Assembly: GCA_001804705.1 (NCBI GenBank)
Contig: MHAY01000068.1
Location: 1-32,592 of the forward strand
Direction: 5' to 3'
DNA from: Ignavibacteria bacterium RIFOXYC2_FULL_35_21
GTDB taxonomy: Bacteria > Bacteroidota > Ignavibacteria > Kapaibacteriales > UBA2268
DNA: 32,592 bases
Every line of letters starts with the position of its first letter. The first letter of the stretch is position 1. This document shows positions 4,632 to 24,272 of this stretch, one piece after another. The translations under genes and the position numbers were made by a program. Below the pieces are notes generated by a model, which saw nothing but the letters and a program-made list of their open reading frames with translations, ran no database searches and was not told where the DNA came from.

Positions 4632-7556
4632 TCATTTATTAACAACAATCGGGATTGTCCTGCTTGTTTTTCCAACATTCGCCCTGCAATAATACACCCC
4701 ATCATTAAGAGTGCTAATATTAATATCAAAATCACAACTGCCCGAATTTAGACGTCCCTTATAAATTTGTAAAACCTCATTACCAATAATGTCATAAAGT
4801 GAAATTCTGGCTTCATCTCCAAATGGCAAGAACATACTGAACTTTGTAGTATTTGACACTGGATTTGGTGATGCTTCAAGTGTTAATCCGGAATAAAGAT
4901 ATTGCAATTCATCTACGAGGGCTGGTGAATCGTCAATCCTAAGGTCATCAATATACCATCCGTCACGGTTGTTGAAATTGTTTGAATATAATTCAAAGGC
5001 AATCATCACGGTATCACCTATATAATCTGCTAATCCGATCCTTTCACTATACCATGAACTTGTAGCTATATCATCGGTAAATCCTGCTGACCTGTCAGAA
5101 TTAACAGATAAAACACCTTTCCATGTAACACCGAAATCAGATGATACATAAACTATTCCATAATCACCATTTTTATGAATGATTGCAATATGTTCAAAGC
5201 TTAAGGTTGTTTTTTCCTGAGAAATTATTACCGGTGGAAAATAAACATAATTAAATGCATTATTCTGATACTTTCCCTCAGGAGAATCAGTAAGAGAATT
5301 GGGTGCGGAAATACTCTTAACTGTCGTTGTTCCCCATCCTTCGGTTGTATATTTCGCGATAGGGTCCGGGGTAGTATCAAAATTATCAGTCAATTCACTT
5401 AAAACATCTCCGGCATATGCAATAAATTTATCTGAAAAGTCGCTCTCAGTCTCAATTTGTCCTCTTTTAGCTATTGCTTTTAATTTAATCAAATGAAATT
5501 GATTGGGTGAAATGTTAAGTGCGATGCTTGAATTTTGGCCTGCCTGAATACTCCCTGAAAAAGTTTGATTCATAGCATCATCAACATATATATCAACTTT
5601 AATAACATCATGACAATAAGTACTGTCTGTATGGTACATAGGATTTTCCCATGAAAGTAATACCCCATTGCTTGTGGGTTTGGTTGATATTTTAGAAGGA
5701 GGAAAAGGTTTTAAACCACCTCCTGCTACAACAGATTGATAAATCAAAGCGCTTTCCAAATCCTCACTTGTATGAGTCTTTATGCTGTATGTATATTGCT
5801 GGCCATCAACAACACTGCCGTCAACATAAGTTTGTATTCCTTTATTCACACGAGCTATTTCGACATCATTACGATAAACAATTATTACAAAATCTCCGAG
5901 CGGGTCAGAAAGTTGATTGACTGACGGGTCAATCCAATTTAAAGTAACACTGTTCGGAGACTGATAATCGCTTATTGTAGCAAGAGCAGTAGGAGCTTTC
6001 GGATTTGTTGAGAGCAAGGCAACATATACATCATTCGTATAAAATGAAGTATTATATCCGCTTGGCATCCACCAGCATGGATATATTTTTCCGTTATAAG
6101 CTGTAATTGATGTATAGTCTCCCCAGTAATAATTACCATTATCACCAATAATATCATCGGGACTGTTGAGATAAATCATTTGTGGAGTAATCCTCATATT
6201 CCTGAAGTTCGCACCATCATTTGATACTGCAAGATAAACATCAAAACCATTATTATCAGGGTCATTTTGCGAACTATAATACACAACGGCAACAATACCG
6301 GTTTTAGGGTCAACGCAAACATTCGGAAACCACATATCGTTTCCATACTGATTATCATCTATACGGATTTTACTTGCCCAGTCTGCTCCCCCATTCGTTG
6401 ACTTTGCAAAATATAGCCTCGTTAAACCGTTTTCATCCTTTCCCGTTTGAACAATATAAATATATCCTCTTCTTGGACCATTTGAGTGGTCAACAGCCAT
6501 ATAGGGCAATGATGACACTCTCATATTGCCTTTGTTTACGAGGACATCCCGATGGCTGATTGAATTTACCATTCCAATAGGTACGACAGATTGAACTTTT
6601 TTTGGCCCTCCAAGCCAGGTAGTACCTCCATCAATTGATTTTTGGAACAATACATCATCGTTATTATTATTTGGATTTCTCCAAACAACATAAATTTCAC
6701 CATTTGTGCCAACAACTGGTATAGCCGATTGAGATTCGTAAGTATTACCACCTGGGATAAGGTATGGTTGTGACCAACTCTCACCGGCATCAGATGACTT
6801 AGAAAAGCAAATACCTGCACTTTGACCAAACCTTTTCCATGTAATATATATATTATCTTTGAATGGAGAACTAATATTAGCATCGGCAGTAATACTATAC
6901 CTGTCATGAAAAACCTGGTTTAGGGAACCCTGGATTGATAATGCAATCGGGACCTGTTCTTCCCATGTCTTGCCGCCATCTTTTGACCTGCAGACAAATA
7001 ATCCATTATCATAATTTCTATCCTGATTATCAATTTGAGCTACTCCATAAGAATAATAGCACCAACCACGAGAATCGAAGGTCAAACCCGGGTCAAAAAC
7101 CAGCATATTAAAACCTGGAGGTATTTCAATTGGTTGTCCATTGTTATCGGGAGTAGAGGAATGAGACCATGTTTTAAAACCGTCAAATGTTGCATAAGCA
7201 CTCATTCGATAACCTGTTTGGGCGTTTAGGTAATAATAATCATTCGCCCCGGCTACAATGTTATCCGGATTTGTCGGATTATATGTAATCCACGTTTCCG
7301 ATTGGTTATTGTTCCCGCCGGACAGATTTTTAATTTCAAAACCGTCAGCCATTATCCTATCTGAGCCGGTATATTTACTCATTGCTTCAGGTGGAAAATT
7401 TTTATAAAATACCTTCCTGGCTCTGCTTTCGGCTCTATCTCTATTTGTCCAGTTTATATCGAGGTATTCCGGCAGTTGCCTTGCATCATATTGAGACAAA
7501 AGTTCAATGCATGAAGCTAAAATTACAACTATAAAAAGAGGTAAATATTTTTTCAT
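4632..7556 (-). CDS. Secreted sialidase-fold/FN3 protein with T9SS sorting tail
   Basis: The start was placed at the ATG at 7556 (MKKYLPLF...), 16 codons into the longest frame, because AAGGA lies eight bases upstream and a classical signal peptide begins there; this gives 974 aa. After the signal peptide, residues to about 520 carry repeated Asp-box (BNR) motifs such as SKDGGKTW, SSDAGESW, SIDGGTTW and STNGGADW, typical of the sialidase-type beta-propeller. Two fibronectin-III-like domains follow (from APTALATISDY and PFPPSKIST). Next is a jelly-roll-like region ending GWYIDDLRIDD, then a type A T9SS tail beginning LEASPNPVSN and ending TIPIVVNK. The propeller suggests carbohydrate or protein binding at the cell surface, but no full set of sialidase catalytic residues could be assigned, so enzymatic activity is not claimed. 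It is flanked by its own terminator. Confidence 0.85.
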   Translation of the reverse strand: MKKYLPLFIVVILASCIELLSQYDARQLPEYLDINWTNRDRAESRARKVFYKNFPPEAMSKYTGSDRIMADGFEIKNLSGGNNNQSETWITYNPTNPDNIVAGANDYYYLNAQTGYRMSAYATFDGFKTWSHSSTPDNNGQPIEIPPGFNMLVFDPGLTFDSRGWCYYSYGVAQIDNQDRNYDNGLFVCRSKDGGKTWEEQVPIALSIQGSLNQVFHDRYSITADANISSPFKDNIYITWKRFGQSAGICFSKSSDAGESWSQPYLIPGGNTYESQSAIPVVGTNGEIYVVWRNPNNNNDDVLFQKSIDGGTTWLGGPKKVQSVVPIGMVNSISHRDVLVNKGNMRVSSLPYMAVDHSNGPRRGYIYIVQTGKDENGLTRLYFAKSTNGGADWASKIRIDDNQYGNDMWFPNVCVDPKTGIVAVVYYSSQNDPDNNGFDVYLAVSNDGANFRNMRITPQMIYLNSPDDIIGDNGNYYWGDYTSITAYNGKIYPCWWMPSGYNTSFYTNDVYVALLSTNPKAPTALATISDYQSPNSVTLNWIDPSVNQLSDPLGDFVIIVYRNDVEIARVNKGIQTYVDGSVVDGQQYTYSIKTHTSEDLESALIYQSVVAGGGLKPFPPSKISTKPTSNGVLLSWENPMYHTDSTYCHDVIKVDIYVDDAMNQTFSGSIQAGQNSSIALNISPNQFHLIKLKAIAKRGQIETESDFSDKFIAYAGDVLSELTDNFDTTPDPIAKYTTEGWGTTTVKSISAPNSLTDSPEGKYQNNAFNYVYFPPVIISQEKTTLSFEHIAIIHKNGDYGIVYVSSDFGVTWKGVLSVNSDRSAGFTDDIATSSWYSERIGLADYIGDTVMIAFELYSNNFNNRDGWYIDDLRIDDSPALVDELQYLYSGLTLEASPNPVSNTTKFSMFLPFGDEARISLYDIIGNEVLQIYKGRLNSGSCDFDINISTLNDGVYYCRANVGKTSRTIPIVVNK

Positions 7557-7681
7557 TTTAACATCCTTAATTGTTTTCTTAAATATAATCGAATACATCA
7601 ACAAATTATTGATTTCAAAAATGTAACTTAAGAAAAAAAGTGAAAATAATAAAATGAGTAGATGCTGTCTAACAAATGAAG

Positions 7682-15312: not shown

Positions 15313-17841
15313 ATGGAAAAGCAACCCAAAGAGAAAAATAGTATTAAGCCTTTTAACGCTGTCAATACCGAAATAAAGGATATTGATGAGCGAGATTACC
15401 TTGAAATAGCTAATGAAATTCTTGCAGAAAATAATTATTCACAGGTAATTCGTAAAACTCTTAACATACTAAGCGGTTATAATGTTGCCGATAAAATTTA
15501 TTTTATTATCGGAGACGGAAATCAATCCAACACAAGGATAGAGTATGGTTATAACTGTGATAAAAATGATATAATTAATTTCAAATCGTTATTAATTAAA
15601 GACTGCAAAATTATTCCAGACTCTTTACTTTTTGAATCGTTAAAGTCGGGAAAAATTATTTCTGATGTATTTCCTTTCAAAAATGTTCCAATCGGAAATA
15701 ATAATTATATAGTTTCAAATAATATTCAATGGGTTGTAGTAAATCCTATCTCTTATCAAAAAGTTGTGATTGGATTATTATATGCAGAAAGTGAATCTCA
15801 AGAATCTTTCTCAAAAAACTTTGTCGAATTAATCAGGCTTCTATCAAATTCAATTGGAATAGCAATTAATAAAGCAATCAATCTAAAGACAATAAAAAAA
15901 TCATTGGAGCAGGAGCGAATATCACGTCAGGCTCAGGAGAATTATTTCGAACTCAAGAATGAATTATTATCTAATATATCTTTAGAATTAAACACGAGAC
16001 TAAATGGCATTATCGGTATCACGGAATCTTTAATGAAAGGAAATATCGGCCAACTGCCGGGAGATGTCGAGTATAATTTATCATTAATATCTTCAGCCGG
16101 AAAACAACTTTCATTTATTGCAAATGATATTCTTGATTTTTCAGTACTCGATACAAACGAAATTGTTGTTAGAAAAAAGCCGGTTGATTTGGGAAAAATA
16201 TCGCATTACGTTGCAGGCTTATCCAAAATTTTGATAGGCGAGAAAAAAATTAAATTTAAAAATACAATCGATAAAAATCTACCTTTTGTTTTTGGTGATG
16301 AAAATAAACTCCAGTTTGTTTTATATGATTTGGTCAGTAATGCAGTCAAATACACACAATCAGGTGAAATTTCAACTTCTGCAATAGTTGATAACGGGAT
16401 GGTTATTGTGTCTGTTACTGATACGGGTATAGGTATTCCGTCAGAAAATTTAGATACACTTTTTAAAAATATATCCGATATTAAAGAGGCGGTAAAGAAA
16501 GAAGGCCTGACCGGTTTCAGTCTGGCTATTGATAAATATTTAGTTGAATTGCACAAAGGGAAAATCTGGGCTGAATCCGAAGAAAACAAAGGCAGTCGTT
16601 TTTCTTTCTCAATACCGGTTTTTAACGAGGAGTTATTTAATAAAAAGTACCAGGACCTAAAACCGTTTGAAACACCACTCGACACAAGTTCGGAATCAGA
16701 GGAAATTGATACTAAAATAATTCAACAGGGTATTAAGATTTTGGTTGTCGATGACGAACCGATAATGGCTCAACTAATAAAAAATTATTTCAATCTTTAT
16801 AATTACAATATCGTAGTCTGCCATGATGGATTGACCGCACTACAAACCATAATTAATAATCCTGATTTTGACCTGATAGTCCTCGACGTTATGATGCCTA
16901 AGATGAGCGGCCTTGATGTTGCACGTCAGATTAGACAAAATTATTCTTTATTTGAATTGCCGATACTAATACTAACTGCAAGAAACCAAATTGCCGACCT
17001 TGTTGAAGGTTTTGAGGCTGGGGCGAATGATTATTTATTGAAACCATTTGACCCTAATGAACTGATTGCAAGAGGCAAGACCCTAATAAAACTTAGACGG
17101 TTGACCAAAGTAAATTTAATTTTGCAGCAAGCAATCGAGCTTAAAAATCAGTTCATAAACATGACGGTACATGATTTAAAAAATCCTTTAAATGTTATTC
17201 AGGGTATATCTGTTATGCTTAAAGATTTGCCAATAACAGATACTACAGAAGCTGAAATGATTGACTTGATTCACGAATCATCAACTTTAATGTCAAATTT
17301 AATCAATGAATTACTTGAAAATGCAAGCCTCGAAAGCGGTAAAATCACTATTGACAGAAAGATTATTGATTTAAATGAAGTCGCTGAGGATATTATCACA
17401 GGTAATCAAACACGTGCAGATAACAAAAAGCAAAAACTTATTCTCAAGGCCGGTCCAAAGGATAAATGCCATATTAATGCTGATAATATTAGGATTTATG
17501 AAATCCTGGATAACCTTGTTAATAATGCTATTAAATATTCACCCAAAGGAAAAAATATTCAAATATCAATTAGTCATGTTAAAGAAAAGAAAATTCGTTT
17601 TGTCAGATGTGAAGTGAAAGATGAAGGGCCCGGACTGACACAAGAAGATATGAAAAGACTTTTTGGTAAATTCCAGCGATTATCTGCTCAGCCTACCGGA
17701 GGTGAATCCTCTACCGGACTTGGATTATCGATTGTTAAGCAATTGGTTGAACTGCATGACGGTAGAATCTGGGCTGAAAGCGAATATGGTAAGGGTACGT
17801 CATTCATTGTTGAGTTTCCCGCTAAAGAAAAAGAAACATAG
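15313..17841 (+). CDS. Hybrid sensor histidine kinase, GAF-(degenerate HK)-REC-HK
   Basis: The 842-aa protein has no membrane segment and is probably cytoplasmic. About 30-190 is a GAF-like sensor with short amphipathic strands such as VVVNPISYQKVVIGLLYAES. The first kinase module begins near 205. Its H-box reads NISLELNTRLNGIIG, with Leu224 where the phospho-accepting His belongs, followed by an ATPase domain with N-box DLVSNAVKYT and DTGIGIP but a poor G2 box (GLTGFSLAI). A receiver domain spans about 474-595: acidic Asp480/481, phospho-acceptor Asp525 in LDVMMP, Thr555, Lys577. The second kinase module is complete: His620 in TVHDLKNPL, N-box DNLVNNAIKYS, DEGPGL, and STGLGLSIVKQLVELH. I infer that the second module is the active kinase and that the first may be a pseudokinase that senses or regulates. 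No output regulator gene is adjacent. Confidence 0.92.
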   Translation: MEKQPKEKNSIKPFNAVNTEIKDIDERDYLEIANEILAENNYSQVIRKTLNILSGYNVADKIYFIIGDGNQSNTRIEYGYNCDKNDIINFKSLLIKDCKIIPDSLLFESLKSGKIISDVFPFKNVPIGNNNYIVSNNIQWVVVNPISYQKVVIGLLYAESESQESFSKNFVELIRLLSNSIGIAINKAINLKTIKKSLEQERISRQAQENYFELKNELLSNISLELNTRLNGIIGITESLMKGNIGQLPGDVEYNLSLISSAGKQLSFIANDILDFSVLDTNEIVVRKKPVDLGKISHYVAGLSKILIGEKKIKFKNTIDKNLPFVFGDENKLQFVLYDLVSNAVKYTQSGEISTSAIVDNGMVIVSVTDTGIGIPSENLDTLFKNISDIKEAVKKEGLTGFSLAIDKYLVELHKGKIWAESEENKGSRFSFSIPVFNEELFNKKYQDLKPFETPLDTSSESEEIDTKIIQQGIKILVVDDEPIMAQLIKNYFNLYNYNIVVCHDGLTALQTIINNPDFDLIVLDVMMPKMSGLDVARQIRQNYSLFELPILILTARNQIADLVEGFEAGANDYLLKPFDPNELIARGKTLIKLRRLTKVNLILQQAIELKNQFINMTVHDLKNPLNVIQGISVMLKDLPITDTTEAEMIDLIHESSTLMSNLINELLENASLESGKITIDRKIIDLNEVAEDIITGNQTRADNKKQKLILKAGPKDKCHINADNIRIYEILDNLVNNAIKYSPKGKNIQISISHVKEKKIRFVRCEVKDEGPGLTQEDMKRLFGKFQRLSAQPTGGESSTGLGLSIVKQLVELHDGRIWAESEYGKGTSFIVEFPAKEKET

Positions 17842-17861
17842 GTAATCCCTAATTTTTTAAA

Positions 17862-18020
17862 AATTGTAGGGGCAGAAAAATTTCTGCCCTTAATAACAGA
17901 GCATTGTTTTGCCCATTTCCGGTTTAAATTGCAGGGGCAGAAAAATTTCTGCCCTAAATAACAGAGCATTGTTTTGCCCATTTCCGGTTTAAATTGTAGT
18001 GGCAGAAAAATTTCTGCCCT
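17862..18020. repeat. 65-bp tandem repeat, about 2.4 copies
   Basis: The unit begins GGCAGAAAAATTTCTGCCCT at 17871, 17936 and 18001, exactly 65 bp apart. It contains one perfect palindrome (GGGCAGAAA/TTTCTGCCC) and a decayed second one (ACAGAGCATTGTTTTG). The copies differ at only a few positions, so the duplication looks recent. It lies between the hybrid kinase and the GYD-domain gene, with no gene inside. Confidence 0.92.
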
Positions 18021-18042
18021 AAACATCTCAGATGTGTCTCTA
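18020..18042. repeat. Palindrome, GTCTCTAC half-frame
   Basis: ACATCT-C-AGATGT (18023-18035) is followed by GTCTCTACATCTTTT. The right half of the GTAGAGAC...GTCTCTAC frame is present and the left outer frame is missing, as if truncated where it meets the 65-bp repeat. Confidence 0.65.
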
Positions 18043-18069
18043 CATCTTTTATTTATTAATTATTTTTAT

Positions 18070-20733: not shown

Positions 20734-21858
20734 ATGAAAATCGGAATGGTATGCTATCCAACCTACGGAGGCAGTGGAATTGTCGCTACTGAACTGGGAA
20801 TCGAGCTTGCAAGAACGGGACATGAAGTCCATTTCATCAGCTATGCCCTCCCGACAAGGTTGAACAATTTTCAGGACAATGTTTTTTTTCATGACGTTGA
20901 AATACCTAACTATCCGCTTTTCGAATTTCATTTATATACACTTGCCTTAGTCGGCAAAATCATTGACGTTGTAAAATACGAAAAAATTGATATACTTCAC
21001 GTGCATTACGCAATTCCTCATGCTGTCAGCGGTTACCTCGCAAGGCAAATTTTGCTCAAAGATTATAATTTAAAATTAGTTACAACACTACATGGTACTG
21101 ATATTACCTTAATTGGTTTAGAACCAAGCTTTCATCCGATTATAAAATTTTCACTTGAACATTCGGATAGAATAACTGCAGTTTCAAGTTATCTCCGGGA
21201 AAAAACAATTCAACATTTTAATACAGGCAGGGAGATTGATGTTATTCCAAATTTTGTTGATACATCAATTTATAAAAGACAGGAATACCCCGGCCTGAAA
21301 AAACTGGTAGCGCCGAATGACGAGAAGATTCTGATTCATATTTCAAATTTCAGAACTGTAAAAAGAGTATGTGATGTTGTGAAAATCTTTAATGAAGTGC
21401 TGAAGAAAATTCCGTCTAAGTTATTATTAGTAGGTGACGGGCCCGATAGAATTGCGGCTGAGAATCTTGCTCGCGAGCTCGGAATTCAAAAACACATTAA
21501 ATTTTTAGGTAAACAGACTTCTCTCGTTGAACTTCTTTCGATTTCTCACGTCTTTATACTACCCAGCCAGTCCGAAAGTTTTGGCTTGTCTGCTCTTGAA
21601 GCTATGAGCTGTGGCGTCCCTGTTGTCGCATCGAATATTGGAGGAATTCCGGAAGTTGTTGGCCATAATGAGACTGGTTTCGTTGCCGAACTCGGTGATG
21701 TAAGCAGAATGGCAAGATATACTATCGAACTACTTGAAAAGCCAAAGAAATGGGAAAGCTTTTCTATTAATGCAAGAAAGCGTGCTATTGAGTTATTTGA
21801 TATAAAATTAATCGTGCCAAAATATGAAAATATATATAGGGAATTGTTTGAGCCTTAA
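20734..21858 (+). CDS. bshA: N-acetyl-alpha-D-glucosaminyl L-malate synthase (bacillithiol pathway)
   Basis: BshA is a GT4 glycosyltransferase that transfers GlcNAc from UDP-GlcNAc to L-malate, the first step of bacillithiol synthesis. The start [20 protein letters not shown] is the hallmark of BshA. Also present are [12 protein letters not shown] at 89-100, [11 protein letters not shown] at 118-128, and the GT4 E-x7-E motif as Glu281 and Glu289 in [16 protein letters not shown]. The length of 374 aa is normal. TGAGGA lies close to the ATG. The partner genes bshB and bshC are not in this window. It is divergent from yigZ (23 bp), so its promoter probably lies inside yigZ. At the other end it shares the 4-bp palindrome TTAA with the M14 carboxypeptidase gene as overlapping stop codons. 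Confidence 0.93.
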
Positions 21859-24272
21859 CGTACTGAGATTATTTTATAAAAATAATTTTCCGAACCATTT
21901 TCAATTCTTATAAAATAGAACCCAGGGATAAGGTAAATTGTTGGTATTTCAAATTTATAAATATTATTTTCATTTGGTTCGATATTTGAAAAATAAACTT
22001 CTTCTCCAAGAGAATTATAAAGAACTACCCTGGCGTTTCCTGAAATATTTTGTTTATTATTATTAAATTTTATAATCAATGGTTCCCCAATTTTTATTGG
22101 TGATGGATAACAAATTATAGCAGGATTATTTTTATCATAATCATCATGAATTTCAATTGAATCTACATAAAACCGAATTTTTATATCATCAAGAAAAATT
22201 CCATCAAAATTTAATGCTTTATCGCTTAATAGCCCGAATCTAAAAATTATGTACTTATTCAAAAACATTGACAAATCACATTCTTGTCGAATATAATCAG
22301 GATAGTAACCGTCAAATCCGAATTTTCCGGAATCCTGCCGGCTGTATTTTAATCCAATCCCCATTCGCATTTTCGCACTTCTCAGATTAGTCCATGTTTT
22401 TCCGGAATCGGAAGATACCTCTACATAAACAACATCATATTTAGGCTCTATGTTCCAGCGGGTATTAAATTCGAGAGTGGCATTTTCTCCTAATACTTGA
22501 ATTGGATTATCATAAATTAAGTAATTGTTATCTAAATCCGAATAATTGCCACCAGGGCTTTCGGTTATTACTTTCCTCCCTATTGATTTATCATCAATAA
22601 CATTCCAATTATCATTCACCCATTCTTTTCCTAATGAACCGTTATAAAAGATACTGTATATTGAATATCTAAATAGTTGAAGATTAATTGTATCAGTCCT
22701 TAGAACACTATCCTGCACAATTTTACAAACAAATGTTCCAAAACTGCCGTTACTGAAACCATAAGGATATGGAATAATAAATCTCTCTGTTTGAGTTTCA
22801 GTTGTTTTAAGTGGTAATATTATCCTTTCAGGCGATAGGATTTTGACAGAGTCATTCAATGTTTCAAGTAACAGGTGTGATGAGGAATTTAAATCTTCAA
22901 TACCAACGTTTTGAACAGTTAAAGTAATTACACCTTCTTTATTTACTGAATCGTAATCATAAACTGATCTAACATATCTGAGATTAGCAGCAGAAGACCA
23001 TAAAAAATTGTAATTCATATAAAGATTATCCTGTGCAATTGGAATGTATCTGTTAATCAGGGGCCAAAATCCGTCCTTATCATTCCCGACTTCGGGTGTC
23101 ATTGCAAATATTTTTGGTTTCTCCGAAATTGCTAAATACATCCAGTCATCTGAGTCTCCGGACACTTCATATCCAACGGTTTGGATGCCTCTTCCAAAAG
23201 AATAATTGTTGTAATCGGTAACTTCTTTCGTGAATGAACGGAACCAAAGTGAATCCGGAGTTTCCTCATTTTTGGCACCCCAGGGGAATATAATAAGCTC
23301 ACCGTAAGAATGAAAATTACAGGCTAATCTGAATTTATGATTAATACAGAAATCTCTCATCGCTTGAGTTTCAAATTCAGAGAAAGGCGATTCACCGCGA
23401 TAAGTTTCAAATTCGGGTTTAGTAGCAGAACCATTATTATCTGCTTCCCAAAATTGTTGTGGGCCATAATTTCTGTTCAAGTCCACACCATAAGTCGAAT
23501 CATTTATCTTCTTTCTGTTCTTTCGCCACATACCACCGCCATTGGGTGCTCTTTCTTCATTGAAAGCTACTCCATCAGGATTAACTACAGGGACAACATA
23601 AATAGTTCTGTTTTTCAGTAGGAACTCCGATTCGGGATTTCCAATATCAATTCCTTCCAATAAATTCCACAAAAAATAAACAAGAGTTGTTAAACCTGAC
23701 CCTTCCCTTGCATGGTGAAGAGCGGTAAATAAGACTTCTTTTTTGTTTGTTGGATTTTTAATGCCGAAGCAATATGCCATTATAGGCCTGTCTTCATAAG
23801 TATAGCCTATAACTTCAGGATTAGCTACATAGTCGGGATATTTTTGGCGCATCTCATCGAAGACTTCATATACTTCTTCGAGCTTGTAAGAACCACCCAT
23901 TGTACCCAGCCTGAAATTTCCTTCGGTTGCTAATTGCGGAAGATTTTTTTTTGATGTTTCAATTTTGTTTTCGATATATTTTTCATAATCATCAACGAGA
24001 ACTTCATATTTGATTTTTTGAGTTGTTAATAATTGCAGTTCTTGGTTATTTAAAATTAGCTCAGCAGAAGATTTATTAACATCAGCACCTTCCAAATCAA
24101 ATCCTGATTTTAATAAATCATTATAAGTAAATTTATCATCAAAATAAATTTTTATTAAATGATATGAGAAATTTTCTTGTGAGATATGGATAGGCTTACT
24201 TTCTACAATCTGAAATATAATGAAAAGCAGGGTAATGAACCCAAAATAATATTTAAATTTATAATTCAACAT
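21855..24272 (-). CDS. Secreted M14 zinc carboxypeptidase with T9SS sorting tail
   Basis: The 805-aa protein has a signal-type N-terminus (hydrophobic about 8-23) and a propeptide-like region to about 115. An M14 catalytic domain follows at about 125-430. Zinc ligands are His187 and Glu190 in HHARE and His321 in NFHSYGE; the catalytic Glu394 is in MTPEVGND; VDLNRNYG at 263-270 is the substrate-binding NR segment. The downstream beta-rich part includes a jelly-roll-like domain with DSGKTW and FDGIFLDDIKIRF. The C-terminus (YPSPIKIGEPL ... LIPGFYFIRIENG) is a T9SS type A tail. It should be exported and cleave C-terminal amino acids from peptides outside the cell. Its ATG directly follows the alpha/beta hydrolase stop codon, so the two form an operon, and its stop overlaps bshA's. 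Confidence 0.92.
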   Translation of the reverse strand: MLNYKFKYYFGFITLLFIIFQIVESKPIHISQENFSYHLIKIYFDDKFTYNDLLKSGFDLEGADVNKSSAELILNNQELQLLTTQKIKYEVLVDDYEKYIENKIETSKKNLPQLATEGNFRLGTMGGSYKLEEVYEVFDEMRQKYPDYVANPEVIGYTYEDRPIMAYCFGIKNPTNKKEVLFTALHHAREGSGLTTLVYFLWNLLEGIDIGNPESEFLLKNRTIYVVPVVNPDGVAFNEERAPNGGGMWRKNRKKINDSTYGVDLNRNYGPQQFWEADNNGSATKPEFETYRGESPFSEFETQAMRDFCINHKFRLACNFHSYGELIIFPWGAKNEETPDSLWFRSFTKEVTDYNNYSFGRGIQTVGYEVSGDSDDWMYLAISEKPKIFAMTPEVGNDKDGFWPLINRYIPIAQDNLYMNYNFLWSSAANLRYVRSVYDYDSVNKEGVITLTVQNVGIEDLNSSSHLLLETLNDSVKILSPERIILPLKTTETQTERFIIPYPYGFSNGSFGTFVCKIVQDSVLRTDTINLQLFRYSIYSIFYNGSLGKEWVNDNWNVIDDKSIGRKVITESPGGNYSDLDNNYLIYDNPIQVLGENATLEFNTRWNIEPKYDVVYVEVSSDSGKTWTNLRSAKMRMGIGLKYSRQDSGKFGFDGYYPDYIRQECDLSMFLNKYIIFRFGLLSDKALNFDGIFLDDIKIRFYVDSIEIHDDYDKNNPAIICYPSPIKIGEPLIIKFNNNKQNISGNARVVLYNSLGEEVYFSNIEPNENNIYKFEIPTIYLIPGFYFIRIENGSENYFYKIISVR

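Follow-up and report, generated by a model that had tools for sequence, protein, structure and literature searches.

A kinase gene with four modules

The window, i.e., the whole stretch of 32,592 nucleotides that was analysed, carries an open reading frame on the forward strand (15313-17841, stop codon included) that encodes 842 amino acids and is also found as a full-length open frame in four other genomes. The modules of the protein are arranged in the order GAF, first histidine kinase module (HK1), receiver (REC) and second histidine kinase module (HK2). The GAF domain covers about residues 25-190 (15385-15882). HK1 is made of a pseudo-dimerization/His domain, DHp1 (residues 200-290, 15910-16182), recognized by its HisKA match, and CA1 (residues 291-440, 16183-16632). 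REC follows (residues 473-590, 16729-17082), and then a signalling helix with DHp2 (residues 591-680, 17083-17352) and CA2 (residues 681-840, 17353-17832). In Pfam searches the protein matches HisKA twice, HATPase_c twice and a receiver once; an Orthopox A49R match, under its cut-off, was taken as chance. The original prediction placed the hybrid kinase at 15973-17200, an interval that runs from the H box of HK1 to that of HK2; the gene itself is longer.

The predicted order of GAF, pseudokinase, receiver and full kinase was recovered, with the reservation that the GAF label is weak for the single protein and is backed by its family. Pfam GAF cannot be claimed as a clean match for the 842-residue protein alone, as no match was detected at E≤0.01, and residues 19-198 scanned separately gave GAF_2 at 7e-4, below the cut-off. 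When the equivalent segments of the five family members described below were scanned, all five matched GAF_2 at E≤1 (best 2.1e-5) and three matched Pfam GAF (best 4e-7). With a profile of these segments, PDB chains that bear the name sensor histidine kinase were reached at E 2e-4, and chains labelled GAF at E 1.1-2.6 only. The top chains are presumably phytochrome GAF domains.

The next gene on the same strand encodes a GYD-domain protein (PF08734, 18075-18404) and is present in all five loci of the family. Inspection by eye indicated that an EamA gene upstream of the kinase and a PEMT/ICMT-like gene downstream are likewise common to the five loci. Downstream genes panC, YigZ and a glycosyltransferase are found in four of them, and locus L038 has a DNA-methyltransferase-like ORF instead.

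The first kinase module lacks the acceptor histidine

HK1 is recognized by HisKA (PF00512) with 37.5 bits, over the curated cut-off of 26.9. Its H box, SNISLELNTRLNGIIG, presents Leu224 where the phospho-accepting histidine is expected; the codon is TTA (15982-15984, within NISLELNTRLNGIIG), and the degenerate box as a whole (residues 220-240, 15970-16032) reads SNISLELNTRLNGIIGITESL in all five members. For comparison, the five members were aligned with 27 His-bearing HK1 rows, which represent 26 distinct genes because L025 and L053 are the same gene (alignment A6). A previous 58-row alignment (A4) was dropped because the HK1 of HK-REC proteins had apparently been placed on HK2; A6 was used in its stead, together with alignment A5 of the C-terminal half. 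The acceptor His, R+3 and P+5 are H, R and P in 27/27 His-bearing rows, and are replaced by L, N and R in 5/5 members. Hence, the claim that TTA stands for the His codon and that the usual Arg and Pro are absent was confirmed. Counted by gene, the acceptor is found in 26 of the 26 distinct homologues compared. Within the genome itself, 31 HisKA matches were listed at E≤0.01 and 30 were read (three of them under the Pfam cut-off): 29 have the histidine, and the sole exception is HK1. No substitute histidine was found when DHp1 was scanned, and His414, in CA1, is the only histidine within residues 195-470 that is kept in 5/5 members.

The ATP site has also changed. In the F box, every His-bearing row of A6 has Phe at the second Phe position, where all five members have Ile387. 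In the G2 box, positions 399 and 403 are Gly in every His-bearing row, and the members have Leu or Phe at the former and Ser at the latter; position 402, Leu in 26 His-bearing rows, is Phe in 5/5 members. Except for position 399, each replacement of a motif residue is fixed across the family. The poor G2 box noted initially is thus real, with G401 kept; however, only part of the ATP site has been lost, because the N box and G1 are intact. N343, K346, D370, G372, G374 and G401 are common to the five members and all A6 rows, as are E225 (E+1) and T228 (T+4) of the H box. HK1 has thus been deprived of its acceptor and of a portion of the ATP lid, and retains the core of the nucleotide pocket. Because DHp1 has no His, HK1 cannot start His-Asp transfer by known chemistry, and its autophosphorylation on a DHp histidine is excluded.

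A small family conserves the histidine-less module

Five members, including the window protein, were found among the 123 genomes of the order that were searched, and they are the only matches of an HK1-region profile at E≤1e-45. Three of the full-length orthologues come from further species of the genus, at 76-87% identity, and the fourth from a species of another genus in the family (58%). Leu224 is present in all five, encoded by TTA, TTA, CTT, CTT and CTC; agreement of five genomes rules out a sequence or assembly error. Residues 220-240 form a 21-residue invariant run around Leu224 in which 19 of 21 codons vary silently. This H box is the longest invariant run of HK1, surpassed in the protein by runs in REC (26) and CA2 (23) and followed by the H box of HK2 (20).

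Conservation was also measured by domain. Among the five sequences, invariant columns amount to 12% in GAF (residues 30-190), 74% in DHp1, 56% in CA1, 73% in REC, 77% in DHp2 and 51% in CA2; GAF is fast-evolving by this measure. In the closest pair, the only one in which dS is unsaturated in every domain (the others are saturated in at least one), NG86 dN/dS values were 0.024 for DHp1, 0.037 for REC, 0.040 for DHp2, 0.068 for CA1, 0.086 for CA2 and 0.20 for GAF. When the window protein was compared with the distant L012, at dS values of 2-3, the ratios were 0.079 for DHp1, 0.054 for REC, 0.133 for CA1 and 0.081 for CA2, so that CA1 appears looser than CA2 in this comparison, unlike in the closest pair. 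The dead HK1 is thus under about the same constraint as the live module. Such strictness, close to that of the working parts, means that HK1 probably controls the modules beside it rather than transferring phosphate.

No His-bearing twin of HK1 was seen in the family. Outside the family, 44 loci were read, with few candidates scored per genome (six in one search); one of them, L055, stops short of the H box, and the remaining 43 have the histidine. The closest of these is L066, with 44% identity. None of the 155 viral-contig stretches that matched a pattern is a relative.

Probable origin from a kinase related to cyclase-linked kinases

An HK1 tree was built without the H-box columns and with the F and G2 columns included; the gene of L025 and L053 was entered twice. 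The five members form one clade (100/100) with a stem of 1.26 changes per site and short inner branches, and the clade joins L091 and L092 at 100/99. The acceptor-His state changes once on this tree. A long stem followed by short branches may be read as one burst of change and subsequent stasis, although the stem is sparsely sampled and the pattern may be overdrawn for this reason. According to Pfam, L091 and L092 encode propeller-HisKA-HATPase-REC-cyclase proteins, and their H boxes have the normal sequence SHELRTPL. In L066, which lies outside the HK1 tree, these parts are divided between two open frames: in L066:1-3132, the HK ORF and the REC-cyclase ORF share the frame and are separated by a single stop codon, whereas L091 and L092 are unbroken.

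A protein of the same, LvrA-like architecture was also found in the order, L123 (genome G044): its Pfam order is PAS_4-HisKA-HATPase-REC-HisKA-HATPase, both H boxes are intact (the first reads SHELCTPL), and it scores 694 bits with the LvrA profile, under the curated cut-off. Because L123 keeps the first histidine, its loss in HK1 does not come with the architecture as such. Homologues with a normal first His, which would count against the initial claim, were found among non-orthologues only (L123 and the HK-REC-cyclase kinases), and 5/5 members lack it.

The receiver and the second kinase look intact

The active-site set of REC is complete (D480, D481, D525, T555 and K577, with Tyr574 as the switch residue and the Asp525 codon at 16885-16887), and REC is therefore predicted to be phosphorylatable. 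In HK2, His620 (codon 17170-17172), N734, N738, D770, G772, G774 and G802 are the same in all 20 rows of A5, in agreement with the prediction that the later module keeps His620 and all ATP-binding boxes. HK2 and REC thus look intact by their residues, and the C-terminal half has the layout of a REC-controlled kinase, with REC ahead of a DHp-CA pair that carries the His and the ATP boxes.

The nearest sequence relatives of this half are orphan REC-HK proteins laid out like LvrB, with L013 at 52% identity. In L013, L014, L015, L016 and L018 neither a fused input kinase nor an HK gene in the short flanks was found. The distance between the REC lysine and the HK2 histidine is 43 residues in these five and in the window protein, 47 in L020, L026, L029 and L033, and 42 in L005 (the same gene as L107). 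In LvrB, where the lysine was placed by inference, the spacing is about 55, and its excess of 12 over 43 is not a multiple of 7. In a REC tree, the receiver of the window protein falls among those of orphan REC-HK genes from the same family (98/84), and these adjoin the cyclase receivers at 99/93, with a bootstrap that is not fully settled. HK1 thus adjoins the kind of receiver that its live-looking relatives also adjoin.

Comparison with known systems

In its layout the protein follows LvrA and TodS, its C-terminal half corresponds to a REC-controlled kinase, and the dead module is DivL-like. LvrA of Leptospira is a PAS-HK1-REC-HK2 protein of 832 amino acids with H218, D524 and H616 (PMC5863495), and its first His is the working donor. 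The window protein resembles LvrA in module order and size (842 amino acids; L224, D525 and H620) and differs in having GAF instead of PAS and Leu224 in place of a working histidine. The LvrA profile (NF047465) covers residues 212-836 with 260 bits, far from the cut-off of 1200. TodS and TmoS are also transmitter-receiver-transmitter chains lacking transmembrane regions (PMC4321377). The HK-REC-HK order of the TodS/LvrA type is present in the window protein, and the acceptor His of both transmitters is not: Leu224 occupies the first site and His620 the second. TodS differs, besides its PAS domains, in a His-Asp-His-Asp relay begun by the first kinase, a start that is impossible here.

For the C-terminal half, the closest parallel is LvrB, a REC-DHp-CA protein that has no fused input kinase. 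Phosphorylation of the LvrB receiver frees the catalytic domains so that autokinase activity starts (PMC13269768), and LvrA phosphorylates this receiver in trans, raising LvrB autokinase (PMC5863495). The inverse Y-T residues of LvrB, T86 and Y87, correspond by position to R557 and N558; the switch is absent from the window protein, which has T555-A-R557-N558 in 5/5 members.

For the dead module, the parallel is DivL of Caulobacter, which binds DivK~P and has neither kinase nor phosphatase activity (PMC4211667). As in DivL, the HK fold is retained and the acceptor His has a conserved replacement (here Leu, 5/5). In DivL, however, the replacement is Tyr, PAS domains are present, neither a REC nor a second kinase is fused, and the target is the separate kinase CckA. 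A DivL variant with the His restored, Y550H, has been made. RetS of Pseudomonas aeruginosa is likewise a kinase-dead transmitter with a degenerate ATPase in a REC-bearing hybrid; it differs in having retained transmitter phosphatase activity, which acts on the GacS receiver (PMC5992135). Transmitter phosphatases of the HisKA kind have Thr or Asn at H+4, the His and Pro at H+5; T228 is retained in HK1, and the His and Pro are lost. P222A and T221A abolish the phosphatase of VicK and P222G does not (PMC3582566), and H260A diminishes that of HK853 (PMC5727384). A laboratory-evolved ChrS variant, a pseudokinase, acts with HrrS. RocA and plant phytochromes are also named in the literature as kinase-dead relatives. 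Among the open-licence PMC matches listed, none described a fused dead-plus-live histidine kinase by title or start of abstract, which is a weak negative.

Structure models

AlphaFold models had mean pLDDT values of 71.0 (full length) and 75.6 (HK1-REC). For DHp1, pLDDT was mostly below 50 in the full-length model and about 60-66 in HK1-REC, with a pTM of 0.50; usable DHp1 geometry was not obtained from these models, which were monomers made with small alignments. With the full-length model, Foldseek ranked LvrB (8vc9) first, although the two structures superpose poorly as a whole (TM 0.19/0.41, rmsd about 22). With HK1-REC, ShkA came first, followed by the live kinases WalK, ZraS, HK853 and GacS; DivL (4q20) was rank 25 and RetS (6dk7) rank 28 among the 50 matches listed. 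The models and the Foldseek searches support the folds, and not the mechanism.

A possible role for a non-transmitting transmitter

The residue pattern, its conservation, the single change on the tree and the intact motifs of REC and HK2 are direct observations; dimerization, docking, gating, an outside donor and a partner regulator are what we infer around them. The missing DHp1 histidine and the conservation of the module agree with the original prediction that HK1 regulates and does not start phosphotransfer; its target, REC or the active kinase, is a conjecture. The reading that we tentatively favour, at slightly less than an even chance, is that HK1 is a DivL-like pseudo-transmitter fused in cis, which relays the GAF signal by docking onto REC and gating it, and thereby HK2. 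HK1 would have arisen once from a kinase related to the HK-REC-adenylate cyclase proteins and would have been fixed by selection; derived from a kinase that stood beside the same receiver type, it would now precede a REC-controlled kinase. A signal perceived by GAF might pass down the helix to DHp1, which would still dimerize and offer a face for receiver docking. With no His and a damaged ATP lid, HK1 could not donate phosphate, and with His and Pro gone it probably could not hydrolyse Asp-phosphate either, as the VicK and HK853 mutants suggest. If HK1 has neither kinase nor, probably, phosphatase activity, its most likely task is to read or hold a receiver, for which DivL and DivK~P are the example. 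Taken together, the REC switch of LvrB, its feeding by LvrA and the DivL precedent lead to the proposal that a GAF-controlled HK1 docks REC. By alternately binding REC within the chain and letting it go, HK1 might gate phosphorylation of Asp525 from outside, an outside phosphodonor being favoured, by analogy only, over the transfer from His620 considered originally, and its hold might also gate whether REC switches HK2 on. HK2 would then autophosphorylate on His620 and pass the phosphate to a separate response regulator. Two observations argue against parts of this proposal: E225 and T228 are kept and are not obviously needed by a pure scaffold, and Foldseek puts ShkA and live kinases above DivL and RetS.

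Because Thr+4 is kept, the first alternative is that HK1 has lost the kinase half only and is a dedicated phosphatase that dephosphorylates Asp525 under GAF control, in the manner of RetS. Invariance of E+1 and T+4 in 5/5 members and the precedent of RetS fit this idea, which we nonetheless consider unlikely: RetS, which we take to retain its acceptor His and to have no second HK module in cis, differs from HK1 in the former respect, and both the His and the H+5 Pro (Arg in HK1) matter in the mutants mentioned above. An equally doubtful alternative is a dimerization and signal-conducting rod that transmits GAF and DHp1 geometry mechanically to HK2, with REC as an independent input phosphorylated in trans. 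DHp1 is indeed among the best-conserved parts and the models give HK1 an HK fold, yet no invariant run within HK1 is longer than the H box, and CA1, with its N and G1 residues and a dN/dS of 0.068 in the closest pair, would be needless for a rod.

HK1 could also act on another kinase instead of its own REC, as a heterodimer partner or decoy. Such action in trans has precedents in DivL with CckA and in the ChrS variant with HrrS, and 31 HisKA matches in the genome offer candidates; it seems, however, quite improbable, as no other HK or receiver match was found on the contig and the fused REC-HK2 already provides a partner. Finally, degeneration of the H, F and G2 boxes might suggest a decaying, functionless relic. 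This explanation is hardly credible: neutral decay is ruled out by the low dN/dS of the closest pair (0.024 in DHp1 and 0.068 in CA1) and by the invariant run of 21 residues, 19 of whose codons vary silently, and identical replacements are found in five species of two genera.

A bolder version of the docking proposal is that the protein is a bacterial His-Asp counterpart of a eukaryotic pseudokinase-kinase tandem: a nucleotide-binding dead transmitter would read whether the receiver next to it is phosphorylated and would set the activity of the live kinase, with a GAF ligand and perhaps ATP/ADP as additional inputs. JAK and Gcn2 are tandems of this kind. This reading is speculative and rather doubtful; if true, the start of a relay would have been turned into a logic gate, with the live kinase two modules away. 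The dead transmitters DivL, RetS and the evolved ChrS variant act on a separate kinase or receiver, and here all the components are in one chain. With relatives that bear normal H boxes at hand, this arrangement makes the role of a non-transmitting transmitter approachable in vitro. A practical corollary is that HK-REC-HK proteins cannot be presumed to run a His-Asp-His relay.

Other features of the window

Three tandem copies of a 65-bp sequence (100, 97 and 68%) are found at 17861-18055, between the kinase and GYD genes. Each copy contains a near-palindrome, which reads GGGCAGAAAAATTTCTGCCC in the first two; apart from these two, the genome has no copy of this exact 20-mer. On the opposite strand, 4632-7604 and 21855-24272 each encode a large protein that ends in a type IX secretion sorting tail (TIGR04183).
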